From positions 1 to 53,432 of the forward strand of contig BNZQ01000008.1 in assembly GCA_026001225.1 (NCBI GenBank): 53,432 bases of DNA, written 5' to 3'. The number at the start of each line of letters is the position of its first letter. Positions within the stretch are counted from its first letter, which is position 1. The position numbers and the translations under genes were made by a program. This DNA is from Clostridia bacterium. Lineage in GTDB: Bacteria > Bacillota > Clostridia > Christensenellales > DUVY01. Positions 6,220 to 35,828 of the stretch are shown here, piece after piece. The notes below the pieces were generated by a model that made no database searches, was not told the origin of the DNA, and worked only from the letters and a program-made list of their open reading frames with translations.

Positions 6220-6220
6220 A

Positions 6221-17898: not shown

Positions 17899-19209
17899 CT
17901 ATTTGTCCACTCCGAAACAAAGCGGGGAGCTTTCCGTCGCACGAACGCCGTCCTTCTCGGTTACGATATTGATATACAGGATACGGCAGACCCACGGAGT
18001 GCGGATACTGATCGCGCCCCTCACCGTGTCGAGCTTAATAACGGGGTTTACCTCCTCGAAATCCTCGTTTATGACGTATTGCCACCCGTTTTCCAGCGTG
18101 TATTCGAGCGGCTTCCTTTTGGAGAACGCCGCGATATCGACAATTTCCGCGCCCTCGGGGATTGAAAATTCCGCGTCGTACCAATCGTCCCTGCCCCGTG
18201 TGAGCGGGCCGACCGCAGCGCGTATTCTTTTCCCGAAAACGATCTCGTCCGCAAACTGATAGGTGTCGGGTATCGCCTCCGCCTCGGTTTCGCCGTGCGT
18301 ATGCACCGCTATATACGACAAATGCGAGCCCGCCAGCGCGTTGTGCGACTTCGAGGTGATATTTGGTGAAAAATAGCCGTCGTGGTCGGAGTTTATATAC
18401 AGAACGGCGGCGTTGTAGTTTTGGTAATAGTTACTCGGATTCCACCACGCGAAGCCCGTTTCGCTTATGTCGTAGCTTTGCGTAAAGCCGGACAGAGATT
18501 CGTCGAGAAAGCCGGAGCCGTAAATCGGAACGGCGAACTTAAAGCGGCCGTCCACGCCGATCGTGATGCCCGTGACGACGCTGCCCCACGATACGCCGAC
18601 GATACCCGTGTTTGCGGCGTCCACCCTTTCGTCGTTTATCAAAAGCGTGTGAGCGTTGATCGCCGCCGCGACCGCGTGGTACATCCACTGTTCGTCGAGC
18701 GGTTTGGTTTCCGTGCGGAACATGTAATCGTTCTGCGGCCCGTTCAGCCCGCCCTTGGTTTTATCGGGACGGCGGCCCTCGGTGTCGATCGCAATCGCCG
18801 CATAGCCCCTGTCCGTCCAGAGCTTGACCCATGCGGGAAAGGCCGTGCCGCCCGCGCCGTGGACAAGGACGACGGCGGGAACCTTGTGCGCGGCGTCCGC
18901 GCCCGACGGGAAACCGAGATAGGCGAACACGCGCGTTTGCAAGCCCAAATACGATATACTCTTATACTCGATCGCCCGTATGCCGGCGTTGTAGTCGTAG
19001 GCGGGATTGAACTCGTATCCGACCGATTGCGCCGTTTCGCCGAGTCCCGTGTATTTACGCAGGTATTTGTACGGCACGGGCTGCGGAGCGGCGGCGGTCT
19101 CGTTTAAGGAAGCCGTCCGTATATCTCCGCCCGCCGCGTCAAAATTGCCTAAACTCAAAACGCAAGCCGCCATAATGATCGCCAAAAAGATAACGCTTGC
19201 TTTTTTCAT
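17899..19209 (-). CDS. Exported alpha/beta-hydrolase, acetyl-xylan-esterase/dienelactone-hydrolase-like
   Basis: 436 residues from the ATG at 19209, whose ATGA overlaps the stop of the rhamnosidase gene; GGGAGGCGG lies just upstream. An open frame extends further 5' but only antisense to the rhamnosidase. The N terminus is a signal sequence with a possible lipobox (MAAC, Cys16). The fold shows the oxyanion loop VHGAGG, nucleophile elbow GVSWG (Ser207), acid in NSDHDG (Asp275 or 277) and a histidine near AVHTHG (His303/305). It probably removes acetyl or other ester groups from the glycan outside the cell. The exact ester is unknown. Confidence 0.85.
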   Translation of the reverse strand: MKKASVIFLAIIMAACVLSLGNFDAAGGDIRTASLNETAAAPQPVPYKYLRKYTGLGETAQSVGYEFNPAYDYNAGIRAIEYKSISYLGLQTRVFAYLGFPSGADAAHKVPAVVLVHGAGGTAFPAWVKLWTDRGYAAIAIDTEGRRPDKTKGGLNGPQNDYMFRTETKPLDEQWMYHAVAAAINAHTLLINDERVDAANTGIVGVSWGSVVTGITIGVDGRFKFAVPIYGSGFLDESLSGFTQSYDISETGFAWWNPSNYYQNYNAAVLYINSDHDGYFSPNITSKSHNALAGSHLSYIAVHTHGETEAEAIPDTYQFADEIVFGKRIRAAVGPLTRGRDDWYDAEFSIPEGAEIVDIAAFSKRKPLEYTLENGWQYVINEDFEEVNPVIKLDTVRGAISIRTPWVCRILYINIVTEKDGVRATESSPLCFGVDK

Positions 19210-21788
19210 GAAACCGCCTCCCTTTCCTCTGCCATTTTGCCGCGCGCTTTTACGGATATTCTGCCGCCGCCGATGACGGAAACGGGAGTTCCGCCGCCGG
19301 CGGACCTGCCGTTCACACCGCAGACGTTCTCTATGAGAATTTCCGCGTCGGTATTCGGCGGTATGACGATATCGAAGCTTATATACGCGCCCTCCTTGCG
19401 CCAAGCACAAGACACCTCGCCGCGCACTGTTTTTACGGAGCCCTCCGCGTGCGTCAGACCGGACGGTATGACGGGCTTTATGATCAGCTTGTTCATGCCG
19501 ACGGCGTCCTCCGCCGCGTTGATGCCCAGCACGGAATTGAAAAACCACGCGTCATAGCTCGCGAACATGGGATGACAGAACGAGTGCATTTTTTGTTGCA
19601 TTTCAACCTCCCAACGCTCCCAAACCGTCGTCGCGCCGCACGCGACCATATAGCCCCAGCCGGGATATTCGGGATTGATAAGCAGCTTATGCACGGTGTC
19701 GGCGTAGCCGTATTTCGTCAGCGCGTCGAATAGGTGGCGGTACGCCTGATTTCCGGTATACGCATGGTAGTTCATCGAAACGATATCGCCGTTGAGCCTT
19801 TGCGCGAGTTCCTCCGCCTTCTCGCCGGCGGCGAGCCCGAAATTGAGCGCGAGCGCGTGAGCGGATTGGCTGCCCGTGGCATAGATACCCTTGTGCCCGT
19901 CATAGTATTTTTTATCGATCGCGCGAAAGGTTTTTTCCGCTAACTTTTTGTATTTTGAGCAATCCGAGTCGTTCCCCGTAATTTCCGCCGCGCGGGCCAT
20001 ACATTGCAGGTGCCAAAAATAGTACAGCGCGGAAACGTATTCGCCGGGCGTGGTATAATTAGCGGGATCGTCCGTACCGGAGTAGTTTCCCGGCGGGCAC
20101 CAGTCGGCGTACCGCGAGTACAGCGCCGCGCCGTCCTCCGCCGTTTGCCCCGTGAGATACTCCACCCATGCCTTATAACCGTCGTAGTTGTTTTCTATCG
20201 TCGCTTTGTCGCCGTAATATTTGTAGTTGAAAAGCCCGAGCAATAGGTAGCAGACCGAAACGGGGTCCGCGGGACGGAAGCCCGTAAAGAACGGCGCGGT
20301 GTCCGCAATGCGGCCCTCCGCGTCCTGCGTATCGGTTATGTCCGCGACGGTTTTAGCGTAAATACCCGTCATCGAATAGTTGTTGACGGACTGATAAATG
20401 CGCGAGCTGAGGTCGTTGAGCCAGCCGAAACGCTCGTCGCGCTGCGGGCAGTCCGTCATGACGCCGTGCAGAGTGCTGCCCTCCGTCATCACCGCGTTTT
20501 CGTGCAAGCGGTTGAGGATTTCGTCCGAGCAGGAGAACGCGCCGACCTTTTCCGCCGAGCTGCGGACGTACTGCCCCGTCAATTCCGTGATTTCCGCAAC
20601 GCCCTCGATCACCGCCTCGACGTACCGAAAGCCGTGATAGGTAAAGCGCGGACAATATTCCTCAACGCCCGTACCGTTCAATATATAGAGGTCGCGCGCC
20701 TTAGCCGTGCGCAGGTTCAGCTGATTGACGCCGCCGCGCCCGGTCAGCTGCTCGCCGTATAGGAGCGTCACCTTTGCGCCCTCCGCGCCCTTTACCTTTA
20801 TTTTGGCATAGCCGGAAAAGACCTGTCCCAAATCGTAGACCTTATTATTTCCGTGCGCCGTGATCCCGACGGGCGTATACTCGCCCATGACCCTGATCGG
20901 CTCGAACGCCTGATACGTCAATTTGCCCTGCGGCGCGTCGGTCAGCATACAATACATCCAGCCCGTCGCCCAGTCCGCGTCGTAATCGGGATTACACCAC
21001 CCCGCGAGCTTCCCCGCGATCCGTCCGTCGAACACCTCGCCGTCATAGATACTGTCCGCGACGATCGGCGCGCCCGTCACCCACCAGCCGCCGCAGTTCG
21101 CGGTACAGAAAACGAGGTCGGTACCGTCGGTAAAGTCAATATGCACTTGCGCGAGCAGTTTACGGCCGCCCAGCCAACCGTTGCCCACGGCGACGCCGAA
21201 AGCGTTCTTGCCGGGTAAAAGCTCCCGATCGAGCTCGTACACGCAATACAATACGCGCTTTGCATAGTCGGTCACGGCGGGATTCAGCACCGCGTCGCCC
21301 GACTTCTTGCCGTTGACATAGACCTCGTGACAGCCGAGACCGCACACGTACGCGCGCGCCCGCTTTACGCGTTTGTCGGACGGAATAACGAATTGCTTCA
21401 AAAACAGCAGAGAGCCGCCTATACGCGACGCCTGCGCGGAAACCCATTCGCCGTACCAATCCGAGCGGTTCAGCAAGCCGATTTCAAAGCGGGCCGCCTC
21501 GCTTTCCGCGCCGTTCACGACGGCCTTCCAATAGCAGCGTTCGCGGCTTTTAAGCGGCTTTCCGCCGTATTCGACGCCCGTTTGAGCGTCCGATGCCACG
21601 ACGCCGGAATCCCATTTATCGGCCTTGCCGCCGGAGAGCAAATCCGGCGCGGTCGCGACAAATATACGGTAGGTGTTTTGCGTGAAAGCCGCGTCGGTTT
21701 CGGCGCGCCACGAAAAACGGGGCTTCCGCGTTTCCAAGCCGAGCGGCTGTGTCAGATATTCGGTTTTCAAGTCGGTAATTTTCAGCAT
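19206..21788 (-). CDS. Alpha-L-rhamnosidase, GH78 (cytoplasmic)
   Basis: 860 residues without a signal peptide. The Bac_rhamnosid_N opening (PRFSWRAE, TYRIFVATAPDLL, WDSGVV), the carbohydrate-binding beta-domains, then the (alpha/alpha)6 barrel with the GH78 signature TDCPQRDERFGWLND, which contains the catalytic acid Glu. Late barrel motifs EYPGWGYMVACGATTVWERW are also typical. It should remove terminal alpha-L-rhamnose from imported oligosaccharides. Length is normal. It is coupled to the esterase gene by a 4-nt overlap and follows the DUF5722-like gene by 7 nt. Confidence 0.93.
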   Translation of the reverse strand: MLKITDLKTEYLTQPLGLETRKPRFSWRAETDAAFTQNTYRIFVATAPDLLSGGKADKWDSGVVASDAQTGVEYGGKPLKSRERCYWKAVVNGAESEAARFEIGLLNRSDWYGEWVSAQASRIGGSLLFLKQFVIPSDKRVKRARAYVCGLGCHEVYVNGKKSGDAVLNPAVTDYAKRVLYCVYELDRELLPGKNAFGVAVGNGWLGGRKLLAQVHIDFTDGTDLVFCTANCGGWWVTGAPIVADSIYDGEVFDGRIAGKLAGWCNPDYDADWATGWMYCMLTDAPQGKLTYQAFEPIRVMGEYTPVGITAHGNNKVYDLGQVFSGYAKIKVKGAEGAKVTLLYGEQLTGRGGVNQLNLRTAKARDLYILNGTGVEEYCPRFTYHGFRYVEAVIEGVAEITELTGQYVRSSAEKVGAFSCSDEILNRLHENAVMTEGSTLHGVMTDCPQRDERFGWLNDLSSRIYQSVNNYSMTGIYAKTVADITDTQDAEGRIADTAPFFTGFRPADPVSVCYLLLGLFNYKYYGDKATIENNYDGYKAWVEYLTGQTAEDGAALYSRYADWCPPGNYSGTDDPANYTTPGEYVSALYYFWHLQCMARAAEITGNDSDCSKYKKLAEKTFRAIDKKYYDGHKGIYATGSQSAHALALNFGLAAGEKAEELAQRLNGDIVSMNYHAYTGNQAYRHLFDALTKYGYADTVHKLLINPEYPGWGYMVACGATTVWERWEVEMQQKMHSFCHPMFASYDAWFFNSVLGINAAEDAVGMNKLIIKPVIPSGLTHAEGSVKTVRGEVSCAWRKEGAYISFDIVIPPNTDAEILIENVCGVNGRSAGGGTPVSVIGGGRISVKARGKMAEEREAVS

Positions 21789-21795
21789 TTCGTTA

Positions 21796-24351
21796 TTAAT
21801 TTTCCTTTTTCTTATTGAATATGAACAGCGTCGCCGTCATGACCGCCGCGGCGCCTATGACGCACGACCCCGCTATGATGAGGATTCTTGCCGCAGAGCT
21901 CAACGGCCCCTTCGCGGGCGCCGTGGAGCCGCCGCCTCCCGCGCCGCCGTTATCGGGGCCCGCCGCCGTGCGGAAGCCTATATCGTCGAAATACATCATG
22001 CCGGACGGAGCGTTCAGACGGTCGGAGCTGTACCAAATCTTTATCTTATCGACCTTATCGTAAAACGCCCAATCGCCGTTGTCGAGCACGGCGGCGTACC
22101 TTTCGTAATCGTCCGACGGAGCGGCGATTTTATGCTCGACAACGTTTTCGCCCGAATAAAAACGCACGCGCACGGTATTGACAATGCCGGTCGTGTTCGT
22201 GACAAGCTTTAAGGAGAAATAGAACCGATCCTTTCCGGATAAATCCACGCCGTTTTCGAACCGCTTTTCTATGCCCTTTTCGGCAAGCCCGCCGCCCGCG
22301 CCGCCCGTACTCGAATAATCGACGGCAAGCCCCGCGCGTCCGGTCGCCGCGACGGCGTCGGCGTTCAAGATAACCGCGTTTGTCGCGGCGTTCGCGCGCG
22401 TCCACCCGTCTGCGTTACCGTCCTCGAAGCCGGTTTTCCCCGCCGCGTCGTACTTGTCCGTCGTCAGCGCCTTTTCGACGGGCAGCGGCGATTTTTCGAG
22501 CTTCTTTACCGAGAATCCGGGGATGATCTCGCTCCACGATTTGGGGCTTTCGTCGGACGGATATTTTTTGATAAATTTTAAGTACGGCGCGGTGTACTCA
22601 TAGGAACGCTCCGTGTCGATATACCGCATGACCTCCCAAAGGGGCTTTTTCTTATAGATGTCTCCGCTGTTTTTCGCGCGCGTCCATATCCCCAAATTCT
22701 CGCCGTCCTCCGCTATGTAGTCGATTTGGCGGTGCAGGATATAGGATTTCGCGCCGTGGAAGTACAACATATAGTAGGAATAGATATAGGAGGCAACTTG
22801 AGTGTCGAGGTCCTCGTCCGTCAGCGCGTCGGGGTCGTATTCATAGCCGCGGTGCGGCGTTCCCGCGCCGTACTCGGTCACATAGAAGTCGCGCGGCGCG
22901 CCGTTATACGTCATAAAGTCCTTTTTCAGATAATTTGCAAGCACGTCGATATTGAGCGGCGTCACCTTCGGAGCGTCCTCGTTGTGCTGCGACGCCTCAT
23001 AGTTGACGTCGTTCCAAAACACGGACTCGCCGATCGCGTTCGCGCGGTAGGGATGATAGGCGAGCAGCCACGGATAATCCCCCTCCTCCCGCGATACGCG
23101 GGCAAAGTTGGTCAGAATTTGCTTCGTCGTAAAGGAACCCTTGCCGATAAACGGCTCGTATGTCGCCGAATCGTAGTTGCCGAACTGCGTCGCCACGTCG
23201 AGATTCCAAAAATGGCTGCAACAAATCATGACGTTCGCGTTCGACCACCGCGATTTGATCGCGAGGAACGCGAGGCGGACGGCGCGCTCGTACTGCCTTA
23301 TATATTCATCGAGCGGCATATAGCCCATGTTGTTCCACTGGCAGGCGGACTCCACCTCGTTACCGATGACGAAGTTGGACACGCGACCGTATAGTTGGTC
23401 GGGGCGCGTGTACCGTTCGGCTAAAAATTCATAGACGGCTATGTACGTCCCGACGGCAAGGTCGGTGGTGACGTTCGGAGCGCAGATATTGAGCGGGAAC
23501 GTGGGAATCCGCACAAAATCCGGATGCGGCAGTATGCTCGACACGCCGATCCTGCTCGCCCATATCAGCATGAGCTGCGTCACGATAAAGCCCGCGTCGC
23601 TCATGCCCTTTACCTGCCTGTCGTTACCGCTCAAGGTATTGCGGCTGAAATAATAGGTTTTTCCGTTGGATGTAAACGGGATCGCGTCGGCGGCCGTCGC
23701 CGTCGTGAGGATCGAGTTTATGTCGATACCGACCGAGCTATGCTTTACACCGAGCTTTTCCGCGTCGTCGTAGTTCACCGCCTCGATACCCTTTATGGAC
23801 GAGGCCGTCTGCCGCACGAACGTGCGATCCGACACGAATTCCGTGATGAATTTAGGCCCCGCGACGACGGTACCGCCGGACACCCTGCCCGCCGCAACCG
23901 AGCCGCCCGTCAGCAGATAGTATTTATCATATAATTTATCGAAGCCCTCCTCGCCCGCCGCCGTTGAGATCCGCGGAAACGTAACGGTGCGGGCGGTAAC
24001 GTCCGCCTCTAAAAAGCCCGTCGCATCCGGATCGTAATAGTTGCGGTCGGTCGCGTACCCGTCCAAATCGTTGTTGTCGCCGACTCCGTCATAGAACGGG
24101 ATAAAGTCCGCGGATCCGTGATACTCGCGCGCCTTGAAACGCACGAGCCGTAACCCCGCAAGCGGCACTCCCGCGCCGATATGCGCGGTGACGGCGTCGG
24201 CCGACGCGCTCAATACGAGGGCGCTCTCCGGCGCGTCCGCGCGGACGGACGGCGCGCCCCGCGCGGGGAGGGTAAACCCCGACAGGATAAACGCAAGGCA
24301 CAGGACTCCTATGACCGCGCTTTTTAAATATCTATTCATCGCTTTGTTCAT
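21796..24351 (-). CDS. Secreted, membrane-anchored DUF5722-like glycoside hydrolase
   Basis: 851 residues with an N-terminal signal peptide (about 1-35), a TIM-barrel-like catalytic region and a C-terminal Gly-rich linker, transmembrane helix and KKKEN tail. Probable clan GH-A residues are the acid/base in NFVIGNEVES and the nucleophile in FYVTEYG, with barrel strands such as YPWLLAYHPYR between them. The stretch after residue about 630 (GFEDGNADGWTR) is a jelly-roll carbohydrate-binding-like domain. It is likely the outside enzyme that cuts the polymer into importable pieces. DUF5722 membership is from memory of its motifs; the substrate is unknown. Confidence 0.75.
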   Translation of the reverse strand: MNKAMNRYLKSAVIGVLCLAFILSGFTLPARGAPSVRADAPESALVLSASADAVTAHIGAGVPLAGLRLVRFKAREYHGSADFIPFYDGVGDNNDLDGYATDRNYYDPDATGFLEADVTARTVTFPRISTAAGEEGFDKLYDKYYLLTGGSVAAGRVSGGTVVAGPKFITEFVSDRTFVRQTASSIKGIEAVNYDDAEKLGVKHSSVGIDINSILTTATAADAIPFTSNGKTYYFSRNTLSGNDRQVKGMSDAGFIVTQLMLIWASRIGVSSILPHPDFVRIPTFPLNICAPNVTTDLAVGTYIAVYEFLAERYTRPDQLYGRVSNFVIGNEVESACQWNNMGYMPLDEYIRQYERAVRLAFLAIKSRWSNANVMICCSHFWNLDVATQFGNYDSATYEPFIGKGSFTTKQILTNFARVSREEGDYPWLLAYHPYRANAIGESVFWNDVNYEASQHNEDAPKVTPLNIDVLANYLKKDFMTYNGAPRDFYVTEYGAGTPHRGYEYDPDALTDEDLDTQVASYIYSYYMLYFHGAKSYILHRQIDYIAEDGENLGIWTRAKNSGDIYKKKPLWEVMRYIDTERSYEYTAPYLKFIKKYPSDESPKSWSEIIPGFSVKKLEKSPLPVEKALTTDKYDAAGKTGFEDGNADGWTRANAATNAVILNADAVAATGRAGLAVDYSSTGGAGGGLAEKGIEKRFENGVDLSGKDRFYFSLKLVTNTTGIVNTVRVRFYSGENVVEHKIAAPSDDYERYAAVLDNGDWAFYDKVDKIKIWYSSDRLNAPSGMMYFDDIGFRTAAGPDNGGAGGGGSTAPAKGPLSSAARILIIAGSCVIGAAAVMTATLFIFNKKKEN

Positions 24352-24369: not shown

Positions 24370-25227
24370 TTACAGCTTGAGCCCGCTCGCAAAGTCGCCG
24401 TTTATAAAATATTTCAGACCGACGGCGGACGTTATGATTAACGGGATACCGCTGCAAATATAGACCGCGTATTCTATGCCCTTGTTGAGATTTTCGTCGT
24501 AGAGGTTGGAAATCCCGCCCTTCAGAATGGGCATCAGCATCTGCCGTTGCTGATTTTCAATGACGAGCAGGGGCCACAAATAATCATTGTACTGCCCCGA
24601 AAACACGCCGATCAGCTGAATGATCAGCACGGGTACCGAGAGCGGAATCGCTATTTTAAAGTACATTGTCATATCTCCCGCGCCCTCGACCCTCGCGCTT
24701 TCGTATAAATCCTTAGGCTGCTGCGACATAAAAGTTTTAAACAGAAACACGCCGCCGACGATATTCGCCGCAATTCCCGGCAGGATCACCGCGAACCACG
24801 TGTTGTTCAAACGCAGATTCAGCACGTTCATAAAGGAGGGCGTCAGAGTAAGTATTCCGGGCACCATCATGAGAGCGATAATAATCGAGAAAAGGAAGTT
24901 TTTGCCCGTAAACTCGTAGCGCGAAAACACGTAAGCCGTCAGCGAGGAAACGAACACCGCCGCAAAGGCGGTAATCGCGCCCGTGACGATCGAGTTCAGC
25001 ATATTGAGCCCCATGATCCGAAAGCCGTAGGCGTAATTGCCGAAGGCGAGCGACGACGGCAGCGCCCAAAAGCCGCGCGTGAAATCATTCGTATTTTTCA
25101 GAGAGAACACAAGCGTCATAAGCAGCGGGAACATAACGAAAAATACGGTCAGCCACACGCAGATATGAACGATCACCTGCCGCGCCGCCGCGCCCGCGCC
25201 GTTCTTTTTAGCGACCCCGTCCGTCAT
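24370..25227 (-). CDS. Carbohydrate ABC transporter permease, MalG/LplC type
   Basis: 285 residues, six predicted membrane helices. The EAA coupling loop reads YESARVEGAGDMTMYFKIAI, followed by PLSVPVLIIQ. It should pair with the permease at 25224, which overlaps it by 4 nt (ATGA), and take substrate from the lipoprotein at 27268. No ATPase is encoded in the locus; sugar importers of Bacillota commonly share a general MsmX-like ATPase encoded elsewhere. Confidence 0.93.
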   Translation of the reverse strand: MTDGVAKKNGAGAAARQVIVHICVWLTVFFVMFPLLMTLVFSLKNTNDFTRGFWALPSSLAFGNYAYGFRIMGLNMLNSIVTGAITAFAAVFVSSLTAYVFSRYEFTGKNFLFSIIIALMMVPGILTLTPSFMNVLNLRLNNTWFAVILPGIAANIVGGVFLFKTFMSQQPKDLYESARVEGAGDMTMYFKIAIPLSVPVLIIQLIGVFSGQYNDYLWPLLVIENQQRQMLMPILKGGISNLYDENLNKGIEYAVYICSGIPLIITSAVGLKYFINGDFASGLKL

Positions 25228-27227
25228 ACCATCGGCCCCTCCTTGCTCTTTTTTACGTTCAGCAGCACCATAGACCCGGTGAATATGATGACGAACAGGA
25301 ATATGCCCATCGCCGCCGCCGCGCCGTAATCCTTCAAATTGTTGATATTTTTGAACAACTCGAGCGCGGGAACATAGGTCGCGCCCATCGGCCCCCCCTC
25401 CGTCGTCAGATACACGCGGTTAAAGTCCTGCATAGAGCCGACGAACGTCGTCACAAAGAGGTATTTCATCTGTGCGAATATCATGGGCAGATCGATCGCG
25501 AATACGCGCCTGAAACGGCCGCAGCCGTCCAGCTTTGCCGCCTCGTACAGCGAGGGCGGAATACTCATCAGCGCGCCGTAAATGATAATATAGCTGCCGA
25601 CCCACGGAAATCCCATGAAAATCAGCGAGGGCATCGCGGTTTTCACGCTGCCTAAAAAATTAAAGCTCGCGTATTCCGCGGAGCCGAACGCGCCGAATAT
25701 CTGATTCATGAGCCCGCCCGAGCCGTAAATGCCCGTCACCCAAATGAGCGTGGACGCGACGCCGGGCAGAATGCCGGGTATATACATGAGAATGCGCGAC
25801 CAGTATTGCGAGCGTTTACTGCGCATGGAAATAATCAATTCCGCTATCAGTACGGGCATGATCGTCGCTTTCAGCAGGTCGGTGACGAGGAACAGCAGCA
25901 TATTTTTTATGCCGCCCGTAAAGTAGGTGTTTTTGAATATGCCCGCGAAGTTGGCGAAACCGACCCACTCCGCGAAAACGCCGTTTTCATAGCGTTGAAA
26001 CGCGATCGAAAAGCCCCACGCCACGGGATAATATACGAATACGGCGAGGAACGCGAACGCGGGCAGCAGCATAAGATAGTATTTCTTGGACTTGTACATG
26101 CCCTTGCCGAGTCCCCGAAAAGCGGCGGCGACCTTGTCCCCGAAGGAATGGAACAGCGTCAGATAACAGACAAGCATGACGAGCGCGGACAGGACGGTCA
26201 AAACGAGCGCGACGGGCTTCATGACCTTGCAGGCCGCGACGGCGTTTGCGTTTTCCGAATCGTAGAACGCCAAGGCCTTATCGGACGACAGCACGGCGAC
26301 GCCGCTTGCCGAATAATCGAAGCCGACCGCGGAGGAAATTCCGCCCGCCGCGGATACCTTTACCTTCTCTCCGAGCTCGATAAACGCGAGCGAGCCGTTG
26401 TTGGCGACGGACAGCGCCTTACCGCCCCCGCCGTAAACGAGGTTGAGCCTCGCGTTGGCAAGCTTTTTCGCATAGACGGGCGCGAACGCGGAATTGTAAA
26501 TATTCAGGTTGCCGTTCTGCGCTCCGAACACGAACAGCCCGCCGTCGGAGATAAAGAAGGATTGCGGCGTATGCGCGCTGATAAACACCGCCTTCGATAT
26601 CCCGTTTTGCGTCAGGCCGTCGCGCGACAGCCGATAGAGGTTGGCGTTATATTCGGCGTACCAAAAATCGCCGTTTTTCGGGTCTATACCCACCCCCGCG
26701 GGCGTCGCGTCCGCGCTGTAATAATACGTAAAGCCCGTCACGGCCGAAAAATCCGCTATGTCCTCGAACGCAAACAGATAATTTTGCGTCGAGGTCACGG
26801 AGGCCGAAATAATCAGCTTGCAAAATTCGGGACGGTACGCGATATTTTTGACGTTGTATTTGAGGTCATACTCCCATACGACCGCGCCGTTTTCGGATAA
26901 AAGCACGACATGCTTATTTTGGAGCGAGACGGCAAGATACGGCGCCGCCCTATGCAGAGACACCACCTCGCTCGATAAGGGCGTTTCCCATTTCTTGCCG
27001 CCGTCCGCGCCGTACGCCGAAACGGCCGTACCGTTATGCGGCGCGGATACGAACGTGTCGCCTAAAAACGACACGCCGCTTCCCGCCGCGACGTCCGTCG
27101 GCGCGGCCTGCCTGATCGGCGCTTCGAGGATGATACAGGCAATCACGAGCGCAACGATACTCAGCAGCGCGACGGCCGCCGAGATCGCGAAGCGCAGGAT
27201 CCTTTTTTTGCCTACCGAATTTATCAT
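25224..27227 (-). CDS. Sugar ABC permease (MalF/LplB type) fused to an extracytoplasmic beta-propeller
   Basis: 667 residues, about twice the normal permease length. Residues about 11-33 form a signal-anchor helix. Residues about 40-325 are PQQ/WD-like beta-propeller blades (VSAYGADGGKKWETPL, VVLLSENGAVVWEYDL, WYAEYNANLYRLSRDG). A helix at about 335-358 leads to a canonical permease domain (about 375-667) with coupling loop YEAAKLDGCGRFRRVFAIDLP. The propeller would sit outside, beside the binding protein. The 4-nt overlaps on either side and the continuous frame argue against a sequencing fusion. A role in sensing or docking is inference. Confidence 0.88.
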   Translation of the reverse strand: MINSVGKKRILRFAISAAVALLSIVALVIACIILEAPIRQAAPTDVAAGSGVSFLGDTFVSAPHNGTAVSAYGADGGKKWETPLSSEVVSLHRAAPYLAVSLQNKHVVLLSENGAVVWEYDLKYNVKNIAYRPEFCKLIISASVTSTQNYLFAFEDIADFSAVTGFTYYYSADATPAGVGIDPKNGDFWYAEYNANLYRLSRDGLTQNGISKAVFISAHTPQSFFISDGGLFVFGAQNGNLNIYNSAFAPVYAKKLANARLNLVYGGGGKALSVANNGSLAFIELGEKVKVSAAGGISSAVGFDYSASGVAVLSSDKALAFYDSENANAVAACKVMKPVALVLTVLSALVMLVCYLTLFHSFGDKVAAAFRGLGKGMYKSKKYYLMLLPAFAFLAVFVYYPVAWGFSIAFQRYENGVFAEWVGFANFAGIFKNTYFTGGIKNMLLFLVTDLLKATIMPVLIAELIISMRSKRSQYWSRILMYIPGILPGVASTLIWVTGIYGSGGLMNQIFGAFGSAEYASFNFLGSVKTAMPSLIFMGFPWVGSYIIIYGALMSIPPSLYEAAKLDGCGRFRRVFAIDLPMIFAQMKYLFVTTFVGSMQDFNRVYLTTEGGPMGATYVPALELFKNINNLKDYGAAAAMGIFLFVIIFTGSMVLLNVKKSKEGPMV

Positions 27228-27267: not shown

Positions 27268-28947
27268 TCAGGACGGGAACGGATTGGCCGTGACGTCCGC
27301 AAGCGCGTTGCTTCTGTAGCCGCGCGTCACGAGATATTTGCCCATGTTCGCCGTGAAGGACGTCTGCATTCTTTGTCCGTAGACGTCTATGGTAATCGCG
27401 TTGCTCGCGGCGAACAAGCTCTGCGTATTGGTTTGGAAATCGCGGGTAGTCGAACCCTCGTTGCGTAAGCCCCTCGCGAACACCATTGCGGGATTAAAGT
27501 CCGCTATTCCTTTCAGCTTGTAACCGCCTATCATGTTTATCTCGTCGGGTATGCTTACGCCCTTTACATACGGAACGCCCTTTATAAATTGATTGTATTG
27601 CTTGTACGCCTGCATTTCAATGTCCTGCCCCCGTTTGGAAACCCAGAACATCATGAAATCCATCGCAAGCTCGGTCTGCTTCGCGCTCTTGTTGACGATA
27701 CCGTAATAGCCGTGCGGACCGCCGATAGAGCGGGTGTAGTCCGTGACGGGCGCGCCCTCGGGATAGGAGGGATGGGAGGTCATGGCGGGGAAATCAAACC
27801 GCCCGATCTCGAACAGCTTGTCGCCCGCGGGCGAGAGGTCGTACCTCTTTTTCCATTCCACGAGCAGATCGGTCGTATCGAGCGCGATAGCCGATTTACC
27901 CGTCCAAAACGAGGTGTCCTCCTTCTCCAAAAAGCTGTAACAGTATTGCGGAAAGACCTGCTTCAAATTCGCCAGCATATTTTTATAGCGCGGCGTGTTG
28001 TGCCCGTACTCCCCTTCGGTTATCTTTTTCAATGTGCGGAGCTCGTTTTCGGTGTAAATGCGCGGGTCGTCGTTATAGTACGCCCGTTCCCACGCGGCCT
28101 CCGTCGATAACTCGGGATAATCGCCGGGCGTCACGCCGTAGGTCCACGCGTCGTCTTTCAACGGATCGTAATTCCAGTCCCCGCTCCGCGTATGCACTGT
28201 GGACGCGGCGTCGCGGAAGTATTGATCGACATAGGTGCGGAAAATCCAGCTCATCTGTCCCGACCAAAAGCTGTCCTCCGAGCCGTTGACCGACAACGGC
28301 TTTACGCCGCCGCCCAAAGCGTTCAGAGCGGCGCAGACGGAAACGAATTGCGGCCACGTCTTAATATCGTCGGCGTCTATCCCCGCCGCCGCGAACAAGC
28401 TCTTATTGTAATAGAAGGAAACTTGCGTACTTTGAAAGCTCATCGAATAAATTTCACCGAACGAGCCGTCGGGCACAAGCGCGAGACTGTCGAGCGAATT
28501 TTTCCACGGCGTATTGTTCGCATACGGGTTGTTCAGCGAGAGGTAGTTGTTGAAATCGACGAACTTCCCGCTGCCGAAATAGTGCGAAACCATATTGTTG
28601 CGGACTATATCGAAGGATACGCCCGACAGGTCGGACACGCTGAGCGCGTTGTCGAGCGCGGTATTATAGCCGCCGCCCGCGCCGCCGTTGTCGATCGAGA
28701 TCGAAACGAGCGGGTTCAGCTTACGGTACTCGTCCACAACCGTTTGCAGAATGTTCGTTTCCGCCGCCGTCATCGGCACCTTAATCGTGAGCGCGCCCTG
28801 CCTTGACGTCGCGCCGTCGGGGCCGTTGCCGCCGCCGTCGGGGTCTATAATCGTACCGCCCCCGCCGGGATCGCCGCCGCAGGCCGCAAGGATCAGGCTC
28901 AATACGCAACAAAGCGATAATAATACGCTTTTAAGACGTTTTTTCAT
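27268..28947 (-). CDS. Extracellular sugar-binding lipoprotein (family 1 SBP)
   Basis: 559 residues. The signal peptide ends in the lipobox LAAC (Cys23) and a Gly/Asp-rich linker. The mature protein carries family 1 SBP features: LTIKVPMTAAE opening, VSFDIVRNNMVSHYF, SFQSTQVSFYYNKSLFAAAGID with the usual KTWPQF continuation, and a late FMMFWVSKRGQ. It is larger than maltose-type binders and closer to LplA/YtcQ-type proteins for complex oligosaccharides. Start ATG overlaps the stop of the giant surface-protein gene (ATGA), and GGAGAAG inside that gene is the ribosome site. Confidence 0.92.
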   Translation of the reverse strand: MKKRLKSVLLSLCCVLSLILAACGGDPGGGGTIIDPDGGGNGPDGATSRQGALTIKVPMTAAETNILQTVVDEYRKLNPLVSISIDNGGAGGGYNTALDNALSVSDLSGVSFDIVRNNMVSHYFGSGKFVDFNNYLSLNNPYANNTPWKNSLDSLALVPDGSFGEIYSMSFQSTQVSFYYNKSLFAAAGIDADDIKTWPQFVSVCAALNALGGGVKPLSVNGSEDSFWSGQMSWIFRTYVDQYFRDAASTVHTRSGDWNYDPLKDDAWTYGVTPGDYPELSTEAAWERAYYNDDPRIYTENELRTLKKITEGEYGHNTPRYKNMLANLKQVFPQYCYSFLEKEDTSFWTGKSAIALDTTDLLVEWKKRYDLSPAGDKLFEIGRFDFPAMTSHPSYPEGAPVTDYTRSIGGPHGYYGIVNKSAKQTELAMDFMMFWVSKRGQDIEMQAYKQYNQFIKGVPYVKGVSIPDEINMIGGYKLKGIADFNPAMVFARGLRNEGSTTRDFQTNTQSLFAASNAITIDVYGQRMQTSFTANMGKYLVTRGYRSNALADVTANPFPS

Positions 28948-31900
28948 ACGGATCTTCTCCTTATAACCAGTTTACCGAACGCCAAAATAAGCGCCGCGGA
29001 AAGTATCGAAATCGTATTAGCGGCGGAGCGGCAGCCGCCGCCGTCCGGATTGCCGCCGGATCCGTCGCCGCCGTCGCCGGGCGTTTGCGGAGCGGCCACG
29101 CGGACGGTGACCGTCAAATCTCCGTTGTCCGCGCGGATCGTAATTTGGTTGTCGCCCTCCGCCAGAGTTCTCAGCCATTCGGCATAGAAGATGACGGTAC
29201 CCGCCGTATAATCGGCCTCGTATAAATCCGCCGTGATATAGCAGCCGTCGATCCGCAGAATTTTGCCCTTGTTGAAATTGACCGCAACCGAAACGTCGCC
29301 CTGCGCGACGTCCTTTCCCGCCGTCACGTCGAGCACGAACGCGTCCCCGCCGTCTCCGAACACGGGCTTCAGCGAATTGATCACCCTTACGGTGACGCTC
29401 ACGTCGTTATAGACGTCTATGCCGTAACCGACCTTGACGGTCAGCGCATACGCGCCGAAGTCAAGCCTGTCGAGCCAGCTTTCCTTAACGGTTATTTTTT
29501 GCTCCGCGAGGCTGTACGAATAATCGGCCGGCGAGATACCCTTGCCGGACAGCGAAAGCGAGACGGCGAATTTCGGATCTATGCCGAAAACAATGTCGCC
29601 GGGGCTTTGGCGGTCGAACTCCTTTACGGCGTCCGCAAGCGCGGGCGGCGTCATATCGACGACGTAAACCGTGAAGCTTTGCCCGTTTGTGTCGAGCGCG
29701 GAAACCAGCCTTTGCGCGTACGCGCCGATCGAAAGCGCGGACAGAAACTCCTTTTTGATCGTGAGTAAGCCCGCCGAACAGGTATAATCCGAGGAAGTAA
29801 TGCCGTTATCTCCGGTCAAAGAGGCGAACGCGTCCATGTTTTCCATGACCTTAATCGTCAGATCGCGCGGCGCGTTTTTATCAAAGTACAGATCGCCGCG
29901 GCTGACAATTTCTATCTTTTCCGCCGAGGACACCCTGAGCGTCACGTCGGTATAGCCGTCGTCGTTGCGGATCCGCAAAAGGTACTCGCCTCCCGCGGCG
30001 AAATATTCGTTGAACCGGACCGCGTCCGCGGGAAATCTTATCCGCGCCGCGCCCGTGCCGTAGTCCTGCGAAACGGTGTAGCCCGTGATCTCGCGCTCGA
30101 TCGCGCCGTCAACGTAATATATCCCTTTCAGTACCGAGCCGTCCATATTCACGTTTATGTCGAGGTTCGCGGCCGAATGCGTGTTGACGACAAAATAATC
30201 CGTGTCCGCGGCGAGCTTACCGTTCGCTTTAAAGCTGTATTCAAGCAAATCGGGCAGGGCGATGTCGAGACCGACGTAAGTGAACGGCGAAAACAAAACA
30301 TAAGCCTTCCCGTCGGTGAAGCTGCCGCGCTTTATCTGACTGAACCGGCGGATCAGACGGCCGTTATAGTAAATCGCCGTATCGTTCTCCCCGATATCGA
30401 ATATGAATTGCTCGAACTGTCCGCCGCCCTTGCGCGCCAGCAGCTCGTGCGGGATTTGGGAGGAGCCGCCGCCGTGGTACTGATTCTTTCCGAAGTAAGC
30501 GTTCATGATATAGCGGTCGCTCACGGAAAACGCGCCGAACAGCTCCGCCTCGTCCGAGCCGCTGCCGTAAAACATTTTATAGGTATCGGACGCGATACTG
30601 AATATGTAGGAATACCCCGCCTTTTGCGTGAACGCGGTAAAGTTGACGTACAGCTCGATCGGTTTACTTACGTCGAATTGATATTTCGCCTTAACGCCGC
30701 CGAGCAGTATCGCGTCGCCCGTTTTCGGGCGGTAAGACACCTTTACCGCGCCGTTGTCGTCCGTCATCGCGCCGTAAGTAACGCCGTTCGCGGAGCCGTC
30801 GAAAACGTACAGATCGGACGGGCTGTATTTCGGAGAATACGTTATGTACGCGCGGAGAACGCCGTTATCGAAGTTGACGTTAAACGGCGCCGGCAGCTCG
30901 AACGGTATTGTCCGCAGGTATTCCTTTTTAAAGGTTACGGCGCCCGCCGCCGCGTTGAACGAATAATCCGCCGCCGTTATGCCGTTGCCCGTGACCGAGG
31001 TAAATACGCCGCGGTTGGCGACGACCGAAAGCGCGTAATCCGCATTGTCGGGCGCCTTTATGTAAATCGTCGCCGCGCCGTTTTGCAGCGCGGGCGCAAG
31101 CGAGTTTGTGACGTTGACCGTCAGGACAATCAATCCGTTATCGAATTCGACGTTGATAACGTTCGTCCCGTTGCGCAGAGTCTGCAAATACGGCGGCAAC
31201 AGCGTGACCGTCATGACTCCGGCCGTCACCGAAGAGGCGTAGCCGTTACCGTCGATACCGGAGCCGTAAACGCGCAGCAACGACGCCATGTTGAGCGTTA
31301 TTTTATAGACGAGGCTTTGCGTCCCCGTTTGTTTTTCAAAATTGGCGACGGACGCGCCCTGCGACAAGACGGGCGGGTTCGCCGTATAAACCGAGATCGC
31401 GGCGGCTATACCGACAGGGTTATACCTTGTGACAATCATAAAAGTTTTGTCGCCGTCGGTCGTAAAGGCCGCGCCGATAAAGCCTCTCGCTATCGTCAAA
31501 AGTCCCGTTTCGGCGTCGAACGTATACTCCCCGCTGGCAATCCCGTGGCCCGTGACGCGCACAAATGAATCGTATTTCATATCGAGGGTAAACCGCGCGT
31601 CGATCGGACTCGAACGGTTGACCTCGAATATACCGCCGGAGGTCAATACCGCAGGCTCGGAGTGTATAATTTTCACGGGAATATCAACCCCGCCGTGTGT
31701 CCCCGTAAATGTAAAATGCCGCGTCGTATTCGGCGCGAGCGCGGAAAGATACTCTTTTTTAATTGTCAGCACACCCGAATCGGTATCAAAGGAATAATCC
31801 TCCGGCGTCATCCCGTCGCCCGTCACCGACGCAAACGTGTTCTGATACATATCCATAGTGACCGCGAGGTCCGCGGGCGCAAAGCGGTCGAACTCCGGCG

Positions 31901-33128
31901 AAAGCGGCGCGGCAACCGACGGCGGCGCGGTGTCGGAGATAGTGACGGTAAAGTCTATGCCGTTTCCGCCCGACGGTTGATTGACAGTATACAGCTTAAA
32001 GCTTTTCACGCCGTAGGAGAGCGAGGCGAGATATCCCGCGCGGACGGTCAGAAGCTCGGCGTTGCCGTCGTAAACGTAATCCGCAGGACCGATCCCGTTC
32101 CCCGAAATACCGTTAAAGCCGTCTGTGTTGAGATAAAGCGGCAGCGTTAAATCCTTGCCCGCGTTCACGTATTGATCGTAGCCTATGGAGGGTACGCCGA
32201 ATTCCATATCCGTACCGTTGCCGACGTTTAAAGCGAGGGTGATATTCCGCGCGGGATTGACTATGGTAATCGTATAATCGCCCGTGTCCGCGCCGTTCAA
32301 AAGCCCCGATAGATACACCGCCCCGACGGTGAGCGCGGTATCCGTCAGCGTATATCCCGCCGGTTCGAGATGAACCACCGCCCCGCCTGCCTTTTGCAGG
32401 CTCACGCGCGTAGCCGCCGCGCCGTTCAAAGCGATCTCGTAGGTAAGCGCGGCGGTCTGTCGGTGCGTAAAGTGGCGGAATTGCGTGACCGCGGCCGGAT
32501 TTCCGATACGTATATCGGCTTCCAGCTTAACCTCCGGGCCGAACGCCGCCCAATAATATGCGCCGCTTCCGAATTGCAGATGCACGCCCGAGGCGAACGC
32601 GTTCTTGCCCGCCGCCCAGCTTTGAAGAAGCGCGCCGTTCAGATAAAAATGCATATAGTCATCGTCAAATTCGATTTTGTATTCGTCCGCGCCGCCGTTG
32701 CTTCCGAAACTGTCCCAAATACCGCCCTGCGTGCGCAGGTTGACCATCGACGCGCTTTGACGGGTAACGTTAAACGCGTAGCGGCGGTTTGTATGCGCCG
32801 CGTCGGAAAACAGCAACACGGAAATATAGGTGCCGTCGCTCTGAACGGGGTTGACGTACAAATAAATCGGCTCGGCGGCGCTCAACGCCTTATTATAAGT
32901 AATCGATATGTTGTCCGCGTCGGGAATAGCGAGCGTCGCGTGAACGCCGCCGTCCGTCCGCGCCGTCACGGTCGTCCCGTTCAACGGCGTATAGAGCGCG
33001 CCGTCGGCACGAACGGGCTTCCCGGCTATTGCGGATAAAAGCGAAAATACGGCGAGCGCCGCGAGCAGCGCGCCCGTTATAAACAGCCCGTTACCGCTTT
33101 TTAAGAATTTCTTTTTCAGATTACCCAT
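28944..33128 (-). CDS. Giant surface protein with CBM_X2-like modules and two LamG-like domains
   Basis: 1394 residues. After a signal peptide (ending near VRADG) comes a LamG-like region (about 50-200) with a second around residues 800-940. The rest is about eight to ten copies of a roughly 85-residue beta-sandwich of the pattern G.GI...DYSF....G.LTIKKEYL..L, which matches the CBM_X2 carbohydrate/cell-wall-binding family. The C terminus is a Gly-rich linker, GGGC, a hydrophobic helix and RRRSV. It sits between a rhamnosidase and the sugar-binding lipoprotein, so it probably captures polysaccharide near the importer. No catalytic site is visible. Confidence 0.85.
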   Translation of the reverse strand: MGNLKKKFLKSGNGLFITGALLAALAVFSLLSAIAGKPVRADGALYTPLNGTTVTARTDGGVHATLAIPDADNISITYNKALSAAEPIYLYVNPVQSDGTYISVLLFSDAAHTNRRYAFNVTRQSASMVNLRTQGGIWDSFGSNGGADEYKIEFDDDYMHFYLNGALLQSWAAGKNAFASGVHLQFGSGAYYWAAFGPEVKLEADIRIGNPAAVTQFRHFTHRQTAALTYEIALNGAAATRVSLQKAGGAVVHLEPAGYTLTDTALTVGAVYLSGLLNGADTGDYTITIVNPARNITLALNVGNGTDMEFGVPSIGYDQYVNAGKDLTLPLYLNTDGFNGISGNGIGPADYVYDGNAELLTVRAGYLASLSYGVKSFKLYTVNQPSGGNGIDFTVTISDTAPPSVAAPLSPEFDRFAPADLAVTMDMYQNTFASVTGDGMTPEDYSFDTDSGVLTIKKEYLSALAPNTTRHFTFTGTHGGVDIPVKIIHSEPAVLTSGGIFEVNRSSPIDARFTLDMKYDSFVRVTGHGIASGEYTFDAETGLLTIARGFIGAAFTTDGDKTFMIVTRYNPVGIAAAISVYTANPPVLSQGASVANFEKQTGTQSLVYKITLNMASLLRVYGSGIDGNGYASSVTAGVMTVTLLPPYLQTLRNGTNVINVEFDNGLIVLTVNVTNSLAPALQNGAATIYIKAPDNADYALSVVANRGVFTSVTGNGITAADYSFNAAAGAVTFKKEYLRTIPFELPAPFNVNFDNGVLRAYITYSPKYSPSDLYVFDGSANGVTYGAMTDDNGAVKVSYRPKTGDAILLGGVKAKYQFDVSKPIELYVNFTAFTQKAGYSYIFSIASDTYKMFYGSGSDEAELFGAFSVSDRYIMNAYFGKNQYHGGGSSQIPHELLARKGGGQFEQFIFDIGENDTAIYYNGRLIRRFSQIKRGSFTDGKAYVLFSPFTYVGLDIALPDLLEYSFKANGKLAADTDYFVVNTHSAANLDINVNMDGSVLKGIYYVDGAIEREITGYTVSQDYGTGAARIRFPADAVRFNEYFAAGGEYLLRIRNDDGYTDVTLRVSSAEKIEIVSRGDLYFDKNAPRDLTIKVMENMDAFASLTGDNGITSSDYTCSAGLLTIKKEFLSALSIGAYAQRLVSALDTNGQSFTVYVVDMTPPALADAVKEFDRQSPGDIVFGIDPKFAVSLSLSGKGISPADYSYSLAEQKITVKESWLDRLDFGAYALTVKVGYGIDVYNDVSVTVRVINSLKPVFGDGGDAFVLDVTAGKDVAQGDVSVAVNFNKGKILRIDGCYITADLYEADYTAGTVIFYAEWLRTLAEGDNQITIRADNGDLTVTVRVAAPQTPGDGGDGSGGNPDGGGCRSAANTISILSAALILAFGKLVIRRRSV

Positions 33129-33167: not shown

Positions 33168-35828
33168 TCAGAAGCTGATTCTGATTTCGTGCCTGCCCGC
33201 GGGGAGCGTCACGCCGTACAGCCCGCCTCTTTTTGCGGGAGTTACGGCTTTTCCGTCCACGCTCCACCCCGCCCGAAAGGGCAGCTCGACGTCGGCGGTA
33301 CAGGAATACGGCGCCTCGATTTTGAGCGCGGCTTTCAAAGCGTCCTTTTCCCACTCGACCGCCGCGCGGCCGAAAATCGTTTCCTTGCTTGCGGAGGCGC
33401 GGTTGATTTCGCCCGTTATATAGGGCGCGACGCGGATTTTACGCGTAACGCCGAGCCCGTCTATGTCCAGCCCGCCGATCCCTTTAAAAAACCACGCGCT
33501 GATACTGCCCAGCATAGGGTGGTTGTGCGTTACGCCGTAGCCCGTTTGCGGCGTGCCGTCGCGCAGAAGATAGTCGGGCCCGTCGCGTTCCTCGAAGCCC
33601 TCCCAAAGGGTCGTCGCGCCGCGCTCGATCATGTGGCCGTATCCCGGATATTCCTTACGGCTCATGATTTTATATATCACGTCGCCGCGGCCGTATTCGG
33701 TCAGAACTTTAAACAGGAGCGGCGTGCCGAAAATGCCCGTTTCGATCTTATAGCCGGTCGCCTCATAGTATTTCAGCGTTTCCTCGAGGCATAGTTTCGC
33801 TTCCTTCCCGTTTAAAACGCCTATGTCGAGCGCAAAAAACGCCGAGCCCTTCGTTCCCTTGCAAAAGATATGCTTTTCAAAGTTATAGTATTTTTTAACA
33901 AAGCTGTCTCGTATGTTCTTTTCGAGGGCGGCCAGCCAAAGCAAATCCTTTTCCCTGCCGCAGAGAGGCGCGATCTTTTGCAGGAGCCGAACCGACAGGA
34001 TAAAGAAATAGGTGTTGACAAAAGGTATGTCGAGGTCGATGAGGGTCGGGTTAAACCACTCGCCGATACACCAGCCCTTTTCCTCGCGGACGACGATATA
34101 ATCGCCGTCGTGGCGCGAGTTGAGGTACTTCACCCAATTGACCATGCCGTCATAATTCGCCGTCAGAAGCGAAACGTCGCCGTAAAACCGGTACATTTCC
34201 CACGGAACGATGATACAGCCGCTCCCGAAACCGGGCCCGCCACCCCCCGCCGAAAAGGGCGCGGTGTGCGGCATATAGCCCGTTTTGCTTTGCGCGTCGA
34301 ATATGTCGCGCATCCATTTGCCGTAGGCCTGCTGCATGTCGTAGTTGTACATAGCGGCAAGCAGCGCGGCGTGCCCGTCGCCCAAAAATCCGCGCCGTTC
34401 GCGGTGCGGGCAATCCGTCGGAACGTTGCCGTGCAGATTGCTGCGGTGCGTATAGAGATAATTTTGATTGATCCGGTTAAAAAGCCCGTCGTCGCAAGTA
34501 AACAGCCCGTCGTTCTCGATTTCGCTGTACACGAAAAGCGATTTTATCTCCGTGATAACGACCTCCGCGGAGCTTGCCTCGGCCTCGCAGAAGCGGAAGC
34601 CGTGCACGGTAAAGGTGCAAACGTATTCATCCGTACCGCCGCTCAAAATAAGCTCGTCCGTTTGGATATGCCCGCCCCAGGAGGAGCTGTACACGTCCAC
34701 GGTATTGTCGTCGTTCTTTTCCTCGCCGTAAACGAGCCGAATCCGATCTCCCGCCCCGCCCTTCGCTTTCAGGCTGATCACGCCCGAATGGTTCTGCCCG
34801 AAGTCGTACAGCGTCTTACGGCCGTTTCTATAGGTTTTTTGGACCGTGAAAACCTCGCCCGCCGTGTCGCTCCTTTCCCGCTGATATGGCAGCGCGCCCT
34901 CGGGATCGCGGAGCTCGCGGACTTTTAACGGCTCGCCGGGCTTGTATTCCGAAAGCAGATAACGGTTTTTGATCCGGAAATCGACGACCTCGCCCGTATA
35001 CAGCGTATTGCGGAGCAGATTGGTGTCCGCAACCGAAACGGAGTTATCGCTTATGACCGTTTCCCCGTCGCCGTCCGCATAGGTTATCCGCAGCTCGAAC
35101 AAGGTTTTCGGCTCGCCGTAGTAAAAGTTGCCCTCGTTCGGCTTTTCGCGGTTTTTGTACCAGCCGTTGCCGACCAGCACCGCCAAGGTATGGCCCGCGC
35201 CGCCCTTATCCGCGTTCAAAGCCTCCTTTACGTCGTAGCAAAGATAGTAGATACTCTTTCGCGTTTCGAGCGGAAACGTCTCGAACAGACCGTTCAGCTC
35301 TCGGCTCCCGTAATCGGAAACCTGCGGCACAAAGCCGTCCGTCCCGATCCTTTGGCCGTTCAGGCGGGCGACAAAATATCCGAGCCCCGTTATGTACAGC
35401 CGCGCGCGTTCTATCCTTTTATTTTTGAGCGTGAAGCCCTTTAAGAACAGCGGCGCAACTTCGGAAACCTTTTCGCGCGTTATCCACCGCGCCGTCCAAT
35501 CCTCGCGGAACAAGCCGATCCCGAACGGCCGCACCGCCGACACAACCGCTCCGTCGCCGTCGAGTACCGCCCAAAAGCAGTCGGAGTCGGGCCGCAGCTC
35601 CCTGCCGGCGTATTCGATCAACACATTCTCGGAATATTTCAGCGTTTCGCTTTGCCAAAGGTCGGGGCGCGTTATCGAAGCGGCAGAGGAAGCGACGGCA
35701 ATTTTAAAGGTGAAATCCGATACCTCCGCGCTTTTTACGGCGAACGAAAAACGCGGCTTCCTTTCCGTAAGCGCAATCGGGGCGTCCGCCCCGCAAACTC
35801 TCATTCTTTCTATCGTAAATTTGCCCAT
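33168..35828 (-). CDS. Alpha-L-rhamnosidase, GH78 (second copy, cytoplasmic)
   Basis: 886 residues, no signal peptide. The N-terminal domain (PRFSFAVKSAE) and middle carbohydrate-binding domains precede the GH78 barrel motif PTDCPHRERRGFLGDGH with its catalytic Glu. Further motifs are EYPGYGHMIERGATTLWEGFE and a closing beta-sandwich. It is clearly distinct from the GH78 at 19206 (HRERRG against QRDERFG), so the pair may act on different rhamnosyl linkages. The ribosome site upstream of the ATG is weak (ACGGAACAAAG). Confidence 0.93.
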   Translation of the reverse strand: MGKFTIERMRVCGADAPIALTERKPRFSFAVKSAEVSDFTFKIAVASSAASITRPDLWQSETLKYSENVLIEYAGRELRPDSDCFWAVLDGDGAVVSAVRPFGIGLFREDWTARWITREKVSEVAPLFLKGFTLKNKRIERARLYITGLGYFVARLNGQRIGTDGFVPQVSDYGSRELNGLFETFPLETRKSIYYLCYDVKEALNADKGGAGHTLAVLVGNGWYKNREKPNEGNFYYGEPKTLFELRITYADGDGETVISDNSVSVADTNLLRNTLYTGEVVDFRIKNRYLLSEYKPGEPLKVRELRDPEGALPYQRERSDTAGEVFTVQKTYRNGRKTLYDFGQNHSGVISLKAKGGAGDRIRLVYGEEKNDDNTVDVYSSSWGGHIQTDELILSGGTDEYVCTFTVHGFRFCEAEASSAEVVITEIKSLFVYSEIENDGLFTCDDGLFNRINQNYLYTHRSNLHGNVPTDCPHRERRGFLGDGHAALLAAMYNYDMQQAYGKWMRDIFDAQSKTGYMPHTAPFSAGGGGPGFGSGCIIVPWEMYRFYGDVSLLTANYDGMVNWVKYLNSRHDGDYIVVREEKGWCIGEWFNPTLIDLDIPFVNTYFFILSVRLLQKIAPLCGREKDLLWLAALEKNIRDSFVKKYYNFEKHIFCKGTKGSAFFALDIGVLNGKEAKLCLEETLKYYEATGYKIETGIFGTPLLFKVLTEYGRGDVIYKIMSRKEYPGYGHMIERGATTLWEGFEERDGPDYLLRDGTPQTGYGVTHNHPMLGSISAWFFKGIGGLDIDGLGVTRKIRVAPYITGEINRASASKETIFGRAAVEWEKDALKAALKIEAPYSCTADVELPFRAGWSVDGKAVTPAKRGGLYGVTLPAGRHEIRISF

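Follow-up and report, generated by a model that had tools for sequence, protein, structure and literature searches.

The window, by which we mean the whole 53,432-nucleotide stretch analysed here, contains a minus-strand operon with the gene order GH78, CBM_X2 protein, binding protein, propeller permease, MalG, DUF5722 and GH78, in which the gaps from the first GH78 gene to the last range from -4 to 40 nt (Table 1). An esterase/peptidase-like gene ends the series; its longest ORF shares 343 nt with the last rhamnosidase gene, probably owing to an over-long start call. The operon order is kept in L039, a locus from the same genus as the window (L039 and G068:C132 are contigs of equal size with the same matches). 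Promoter-like sites were somewhat more frequent than in shuffled sequences (10 vs. 6.9) and terminator-like sites showed no excess (20 vs. 19.1); neither type of site was used here. BLAST clustering placed relatives of the DUF5722 protein near the transporter in seven loci (the window, L039, L040, L042, L088, L090, and L093), and for this family we found no solved relative and no description in open-licence PMC text. Elsewhere in the window, a 1233-aa ORF (14069-17770) had no Pfam match over the cut-off and no NCBIfam match.

Table 1. Features of the propeller-permease operon, ordered by position in the window.
Feature	Position	Strand	Basis or remark
Second GH78-type alpha-L-rhamnosidase	19206..21788	-	Domain search
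DUF5722 protein	21796..24351	-	18 nt downstream of MalG gene
MalG-type partner permease	24370..25227	-	Start overlaps propeller-permease stop by 4 nt
Propeller-bearing MalF-type permease (P0001), 667 aa	25224..27227	-	Intact ORF, domain matches
CUT1 permease core, residues 384-660, BPD_transp_1	25248..26078	-	Domain search, hydropathy
EAA motif / coupling loop, residues 562-581	25485..25544	-	Sequence; conserved columns
Second anchor TM helix, residues 341-359	26151..26207	-	Hydropathy
Seven-bladed PQQ/WD-like propeller, ~residues 36-338	26214..27122	-	Profile, Pfam, blade model; extracytoplasmic by topology
First TM helix, residues 15-33	27129..27185	-	Hydropathy; Lys/Arg-rich N-terminus ahead (sequence)
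Lipoprotein solute-binding protein (SBP_bac_1), 559 aa	27268..28947	-	Domain search
Enlarged segment of binding protein, ~residues 246-300	28048..28212	-	Family comparison
Lipobox LAAC, then Gly/Pro-rich tether	28879..28890	-	Sequence
1394-aa surface protein, seven CBM_X2 stretches, TM helix at each end	28944..33128	-	
GH78-type alpha-L-rhamnosidase	33168..35828	-	Domain search

The reading frame of the permease P0001 is open for 667 codons on the minus strand and encodes, in order, a predicted TM helix, a propeller region of ~300 residues, another TM helix, and a CUT1 core; hydropathy predicts the two flanking helices in 22 other propeller-type permeases as well. BPD_transp_1 matches residues 461-651 with 45.4 bits (cut-off 26.4), and the EAA motif reads EAAKLDG (residues 562-568) in a loop where G568, D579, and P581 are invariant and E562 is present in at least 90% of 15 aligned rows. 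Hydropathy resolved five helices in the core, the family expectation being six. The best-scoring solved relatives of the core are AlgM1 and then MalF, and the best NCBIfam models for the protein are UgpA and MalF, both far under their cut-offs (45 bits vs. 392 for MalF). The locus thus displays the features by which CUT1 systems are recognized, namely BPD_transp_1 over its cut-off, the EAA motif, a MalG-type partner, and a sugar-type binding protein. By its sequence P0001 is a MalF-type CUT1 importer permease, putatively engaged in ATP-driven sugar transport, in which a propeller is set between two extra N-terminal TM helices.

Evidence for the propeller is weak by single-sequence Pfam search and strong by profile comparison. 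P0001 alone matches PQQ_2 with 16.1 bits, under the Pfam cut-off of 27.6, and has no Pfam match to DUF5711; the PQQ_2 cut-off is exceeded by L049 (35.0 bits) and L092 (30.5 bits), members outside the main sub-clade. A profile built from 10 homologous N-terminal halves (A4) matched solved propellers, namely the designed Bagel8 (8e-28) and Cake9 (1e-27), scores of a kind that repeat designs inflate, as well as 2ymu, a WD-40 protein (1e-26), 7eq5, a PQQ propeller (1e-20), and BamB (1e-8). Among its 10 members, six match PQQ_2 and four DUF5711 at E values up to 1. A blade model, partly circular as it was trained on the family itself including P0001, found seven blade-like stretches, each of 34-42 aa, from residue 45 to residue 332. 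The N-terminal domain of L046 has no Pfam propeller match and that of L048 only PQQ_2 at E 0.29, and in both a propeller is suggested by position, length, and phylogeny. The preliminary description of this DNA, which gave the ORF no strand, had proposed a propeller of about 285 residues, fused through its own anchor helix to a MalF-type permease and placed outside the cytoplasm. The intact ORF, the BPD_transp_1 match, and the profile matches to solved propellers bear out the fusion; the span of the blade stretches agrees with the proposed length, hydropathy with the anchor helix, and the predicted topology with the extracytoplasmic placement.

Protein searches returned 88 and 94 matches, the last 5 and 12 of which, respectively, belong to different long permeases or propeller proteins; the remainder consists mostly of a few types in nearly identical copies, some of them truncated. 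Two of the matches, P0002 and P0026, bear the database name 'sugar ABC transporter permease', and P0026, from 'Candidatus Borkfalkia ceftriaxoniphila', shares the propeller-permease architecture. Full-length propeller permeases are present in at least 6 of 297 order genomes (nine genes, three of them in G068; best four candidates per genome), at least 6 of 391 class genomes (E <= 1e-60; best three per genome), and at least 2 of 398 phylum genomes, the window's own counting among the positives in both the class and the phylum sample; all these counts are lower bounds from overlapping samples. A scan of named genomes yielded eight loci, all in MAGs whose titles read Clostridia or Clostridiales; in seven the match covers most of P0001, and in one, L046, only the permease part, although L046 nonetheless has a long N-terminal domain. 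The propeller by itself is a poor query, matching only itself among 7999 scored candidates. In the 297 order genomes A4 gave three clear matches (one in G000 and two in G068) and four further weak ones in probably unrelated proteins, and it missed known members in G105, G029, G095, G176, and G068:C262, so that propeller-only searches undercount.

In a midpoint-rooted core tree of 53 permeases, from which nine further rows had been dropped, a single branch (98/97) separates the 26 long forms from 27 other permeases, among which is the L107 row with its different long N-terminal region. A single change between long and other permeases suffices in 97% of 200 bootstrap trees. On this tree the propeller permeases are a single clade, a sub-clade of the CUT1 permeases. 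The L107 permease (5347-7125) is 592 aa long, has a weak pectate-lyase-chain match (E 0.0066), and adjoins a second permease of 469 aa. An assembly or gene-calling error joining two genes, which the preliminary description had named as a possible refutation, is vanishingly improbable because the same architecture recurs in many independent assemblies, as a 26-member clade, and the frame is intact. Nor is the architecture common or already characterized: it occurs in few Clostridia, with a scattered distribution, and once in another class, and a permease-propeller fusion is not described in the open-licence PMC text covered (titles and abstract starts), in which DUF5711 appears in work on Acinetobacter pittii.

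The propeller has diverged far more than the core to which it is joined, with a mean identity of 22% vs. 61% in 105 pairs from 15 proteins. The same holds among 54 near-identical 651-aa sequences, where the propeller's diversity is 0.0119 and the core's 0.0041. In L044/L045, the one pair to yield an estimate, all others having dS above 1 or saturated, dN/dS is ~0.17 for the propeller vs. ~0.03 for the core, and the propeller is therefore, by this measure, under purifying selection that is looser than in the core. Of the parts compared between the window and L039, which share a gene set, the propeller has the lowest identity (34%, vs. 41% for the CBM_X2 protein, 61% for the binding protein, and 69% for the permease). 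Across 28 members the propeller has not one invariant position, and those that recur mostly look like blade framework (G239, W80, and Y322); the sole exception in appearance is residue 105 in a second-blade turn, which is basic (K or R in 21/28 relatives). We rejected a PQQ-dependent enzyme on account of this lack of any invariant position and the sub-threshold PQQ_2 score of P0001.

A binding-protein gene is found in the cluster at 19 of 21 propeller loci (17 complete and 2 partial), either next to the permease pair or one gene away from it (the latter in L043 and L044); the two loci in which none was found, L045 and L051, lie on contigs shorter than 5 kb. All 17 complete binding proteins have an enlarged segment of 29-57 aa, counted as the residues between two anchors, vs. 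3-22 aa in 14/14 others, of which 13 come from propeller-less permease loci and one from elsewhere on L044 (a 14th propeller-less locus, L099, had no binding protein that we could find). The segment sits between stretches alignable to solved sugar-binding proteins, in what we take to be the C-lobe; Y-x-D-[QL]-[YF]-x-R precedes it in 17/17 cases, and GD[WFY]x[YF] follows it in 14/17 by manual count. Binding-protein tethers in propeller systems span 10-56 residues, and many are long and rich in Gly, Pro, and Glu; since their range overlaps the 11-43 residues of tethers outside propeller clusters (five with the lipobox Cys aligned), we discarded tether length as a marker of these systems.

The association extends to whole genomes. 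In 24 of them, 13/13 full-length members of the enlarged binding-protein type adjoin a propeller permease, and matches at other places have E values of 6e-32 or weaker. Two contig-end fragments in G068 cover complementary halves of the enlarged type, one of them adjoining a propeller permease, and G105 (62% complete) has the permease with no enlarged-type binding protein found. The enlarged type was found in 5 of 291 class genomes (E <= 1e-35; best four candidates scored per genome), and all five have a propeller permease. In the genomes searched the enlarged binding-protein type thus pairs exclusively with the propeller permease, a statement about genetic linkage and not about contact.

A MalK-type OB domain is encoded in 6/6 propeller genomes searched, and in the window's genome the ATPase is unlinked (G000:C53; UgpC subfamily model 497.9 bits, cut-off 432). 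This UgpC/MalK-type ATPase presumably serves the propeller permease. At ~611 aa (L058:544-2376, minus strand) it extends past ~residue 368 into an additional region that matches no Pfam family clearly, and it has a tail rich in Lys and Ala; long forms like it are found in L059, L060, and L061. Among 30 neighbour genes scanned in other propeller loci, 15 have no Pfam family at E 1e-6, a few are housekeeping genes, and the families identified include GH78-like, GH38, GH94, GH1, GH42-type, melibiase, and CBM_X2. Because neighbours differ between loci, the substrate probably varies as well. A putative lipoprotein family (ORFs of 586-736 aa, e.g., L043:10886-12757, L052:13790-15670, and L053:12997-15009) is encoded near propeller permeases in seven loci; most members end in a GDxAPxGR motif and one has a sub-threshold GH99 match.

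We propose that the propeller serves a dedicated binding protein as its docking scaffold, a reading based on sequence comparison in which the contact itself is inferred, and to which we give an even chance. Next to the translocation gate, on the outer side of the membrane, the propeller would give the tethered binding protein a permanent place to dock and would contact the enlarged segment of that protein, in the lobe that would face the MalF-type subunit. The loaded binding protein would thereby be kept in register during hand-over of an oligosaccharide, which at the window locus is probably rhamnose-containing because rhamnosidases adjoin, and transport would be powered by the unlinked UgpC/MalK-type ATPase. 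The propeller may diverge quickly because it would have to match only its own binding protein.

Comparison of evolutionary distances weakly backs docking. Raw distances correlate about equally between propeller and binding protein (r 0.81) and between propeller and core (0.80); once permease and MalG trends are removed, a partial r of 0.29 is left for propeller and binding protein (Mantel p 0.0085, from a permutation that is too lenient because the link to the core is lost in it as well). In the partial test the value for propeller and MalG is -0.007, and that for binding protein and MalG 0.23. Charge-complementary docking was not supported, both charge tests having failed to favour docking: in 17/17 systems both the propeller and the segment are acidic (rho 0.33, p 0.20), while the charge of the propeller varies together with that of the binding protein as a whole (rho 0.67, p 0.003). 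As the propeller permeases form one clade, the propeller and the enlarged segment may merely be co-inherited.

The main rival to docking is that the propeller binds glycan itself, as a fixed capture or feeding module holding a long or branched oligosaccharide near the gate for pick-up by the binding protein. Sugar binding is known for propellers of other proteins, and several loci, the window's among them with GH78 and CBM_X2, encode glycoside hydrolases or carbohydrate-binding modules. Against this, no site is invariant in the 28 members, whose recurrent positions are mostly framework apart from basic residue 105, and the propeller is the part least conserved between the window and L039 despite their common gene set; we regard glycan capture as unlikely. 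Rapid divergence with framework residues retained would also suit a passive crown or spacer, making no specific contacts, that stabilizes the two extra helices or determines how high the binding protein stands above the membrane, and the often long, Gly/Pro/Glu-rich tethers could be read in the same sense. A spacer would not, however, need to pair with a single binding-protein type, and the tether lengths are not peculiar to propeller systems, which makes this explanation quite unlikely.

The propeller could also sense the substrate or the state of the binding protein and signal to a regulator or to the ATPase. Propellers with TM helices do occur in signalling proteins, P0093 joins a propeller to a response-regulator domain, and some loci have AraC-type regulators and, by eye, LacI-like ones. 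We consider sensing very unlikely, since we saw no signalling partner common to all loci within 7.5 kb and the propeller belongs to the importer subunit itself. The preliminary description had offered docking and sensing, for glycan or binding protein, side by side; docking fits best because the enlarged binding-protein type accompanies the propeller in 17/17 complete systems.

Docking by an extra domain of a MalF-type subunit has a parallel in Escherichia coli MalF, which resembles P0001 in its MalF-type core with EAA motif, its two helices beyond the usual six, and an extra extracytoplasmic domain. The MalF P2 domain, of ~180 residues between TM3 and TM4 (PMC2246101), is described as touching the binding protein (PMC3150292; PMC2246101). 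Unlike MalF, P0001 has its extra domain, a propeller, between two extra N-terminal helices. This domain is not P2, because the P2 position in P0001 holds only ~40 residues, between predicted helices 385-403 and 443-461. By analogy it would work like P2, with another fold at another site. Thermotogales MalG1 and MalG2 are described as having a large unique hydrophilic region (PMC2246101), again a CUT1 subunit that gained such a region in one lineage; there it is on MalG and not on the MalF-type subunit, and the relevant passage of that source mentions no propeller.

AlgM1 (PDB 4tqu) shares the CUT1 core with P0001 (E 9e-18 over residues 379-647) and at 301 aa is too short for a propeller. The Pfam families PQQ_2 and DUF5711 resemble the propeller half of several members. 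Permeases such as OpuA and GlnPQ are fused to their own binding protein, and P0084 (874 aa) likewise consists of a binding protein joined via a TM helix to a CUT1 permease. These proteins resemble P0001 in having a TM-anchored extracytoplasmic domain ahead of the permease core; their fused domain is the binding protein, whereas in P0001 a propeller is fused and the binding protein is encoded by a separate gene.

The preliminary description's 'distinct class of ABC importer' is too strong a term, because the propeller permeases are a sub-clade of CUT1 in which the core is ordinary and a MalG, a binding protein, and a UgpC/MalK-type ATPase are present, and because MalF P2 is already known. We suggest more tentatively, as something somewhat short of an even chance, an undescribed CUT1 sub-class in which propeller and C-lobe segment would be a matched, fast co-evolving docking pair that makes the importer private to its own binding protein. 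The recognition of a permease by its binding protein, and the means by which one bacterium separates its many similar sugar importers, are best known from the maltose system. If our reading is true, docking modules would have arisen more than once, the propeller being a second, unrelated domain placed elsewhere on the same kind of subunit, and the propeller together with the enlarged segment would offer a handle for predicting permease-binding protein pairs in uncultured Clostridia.
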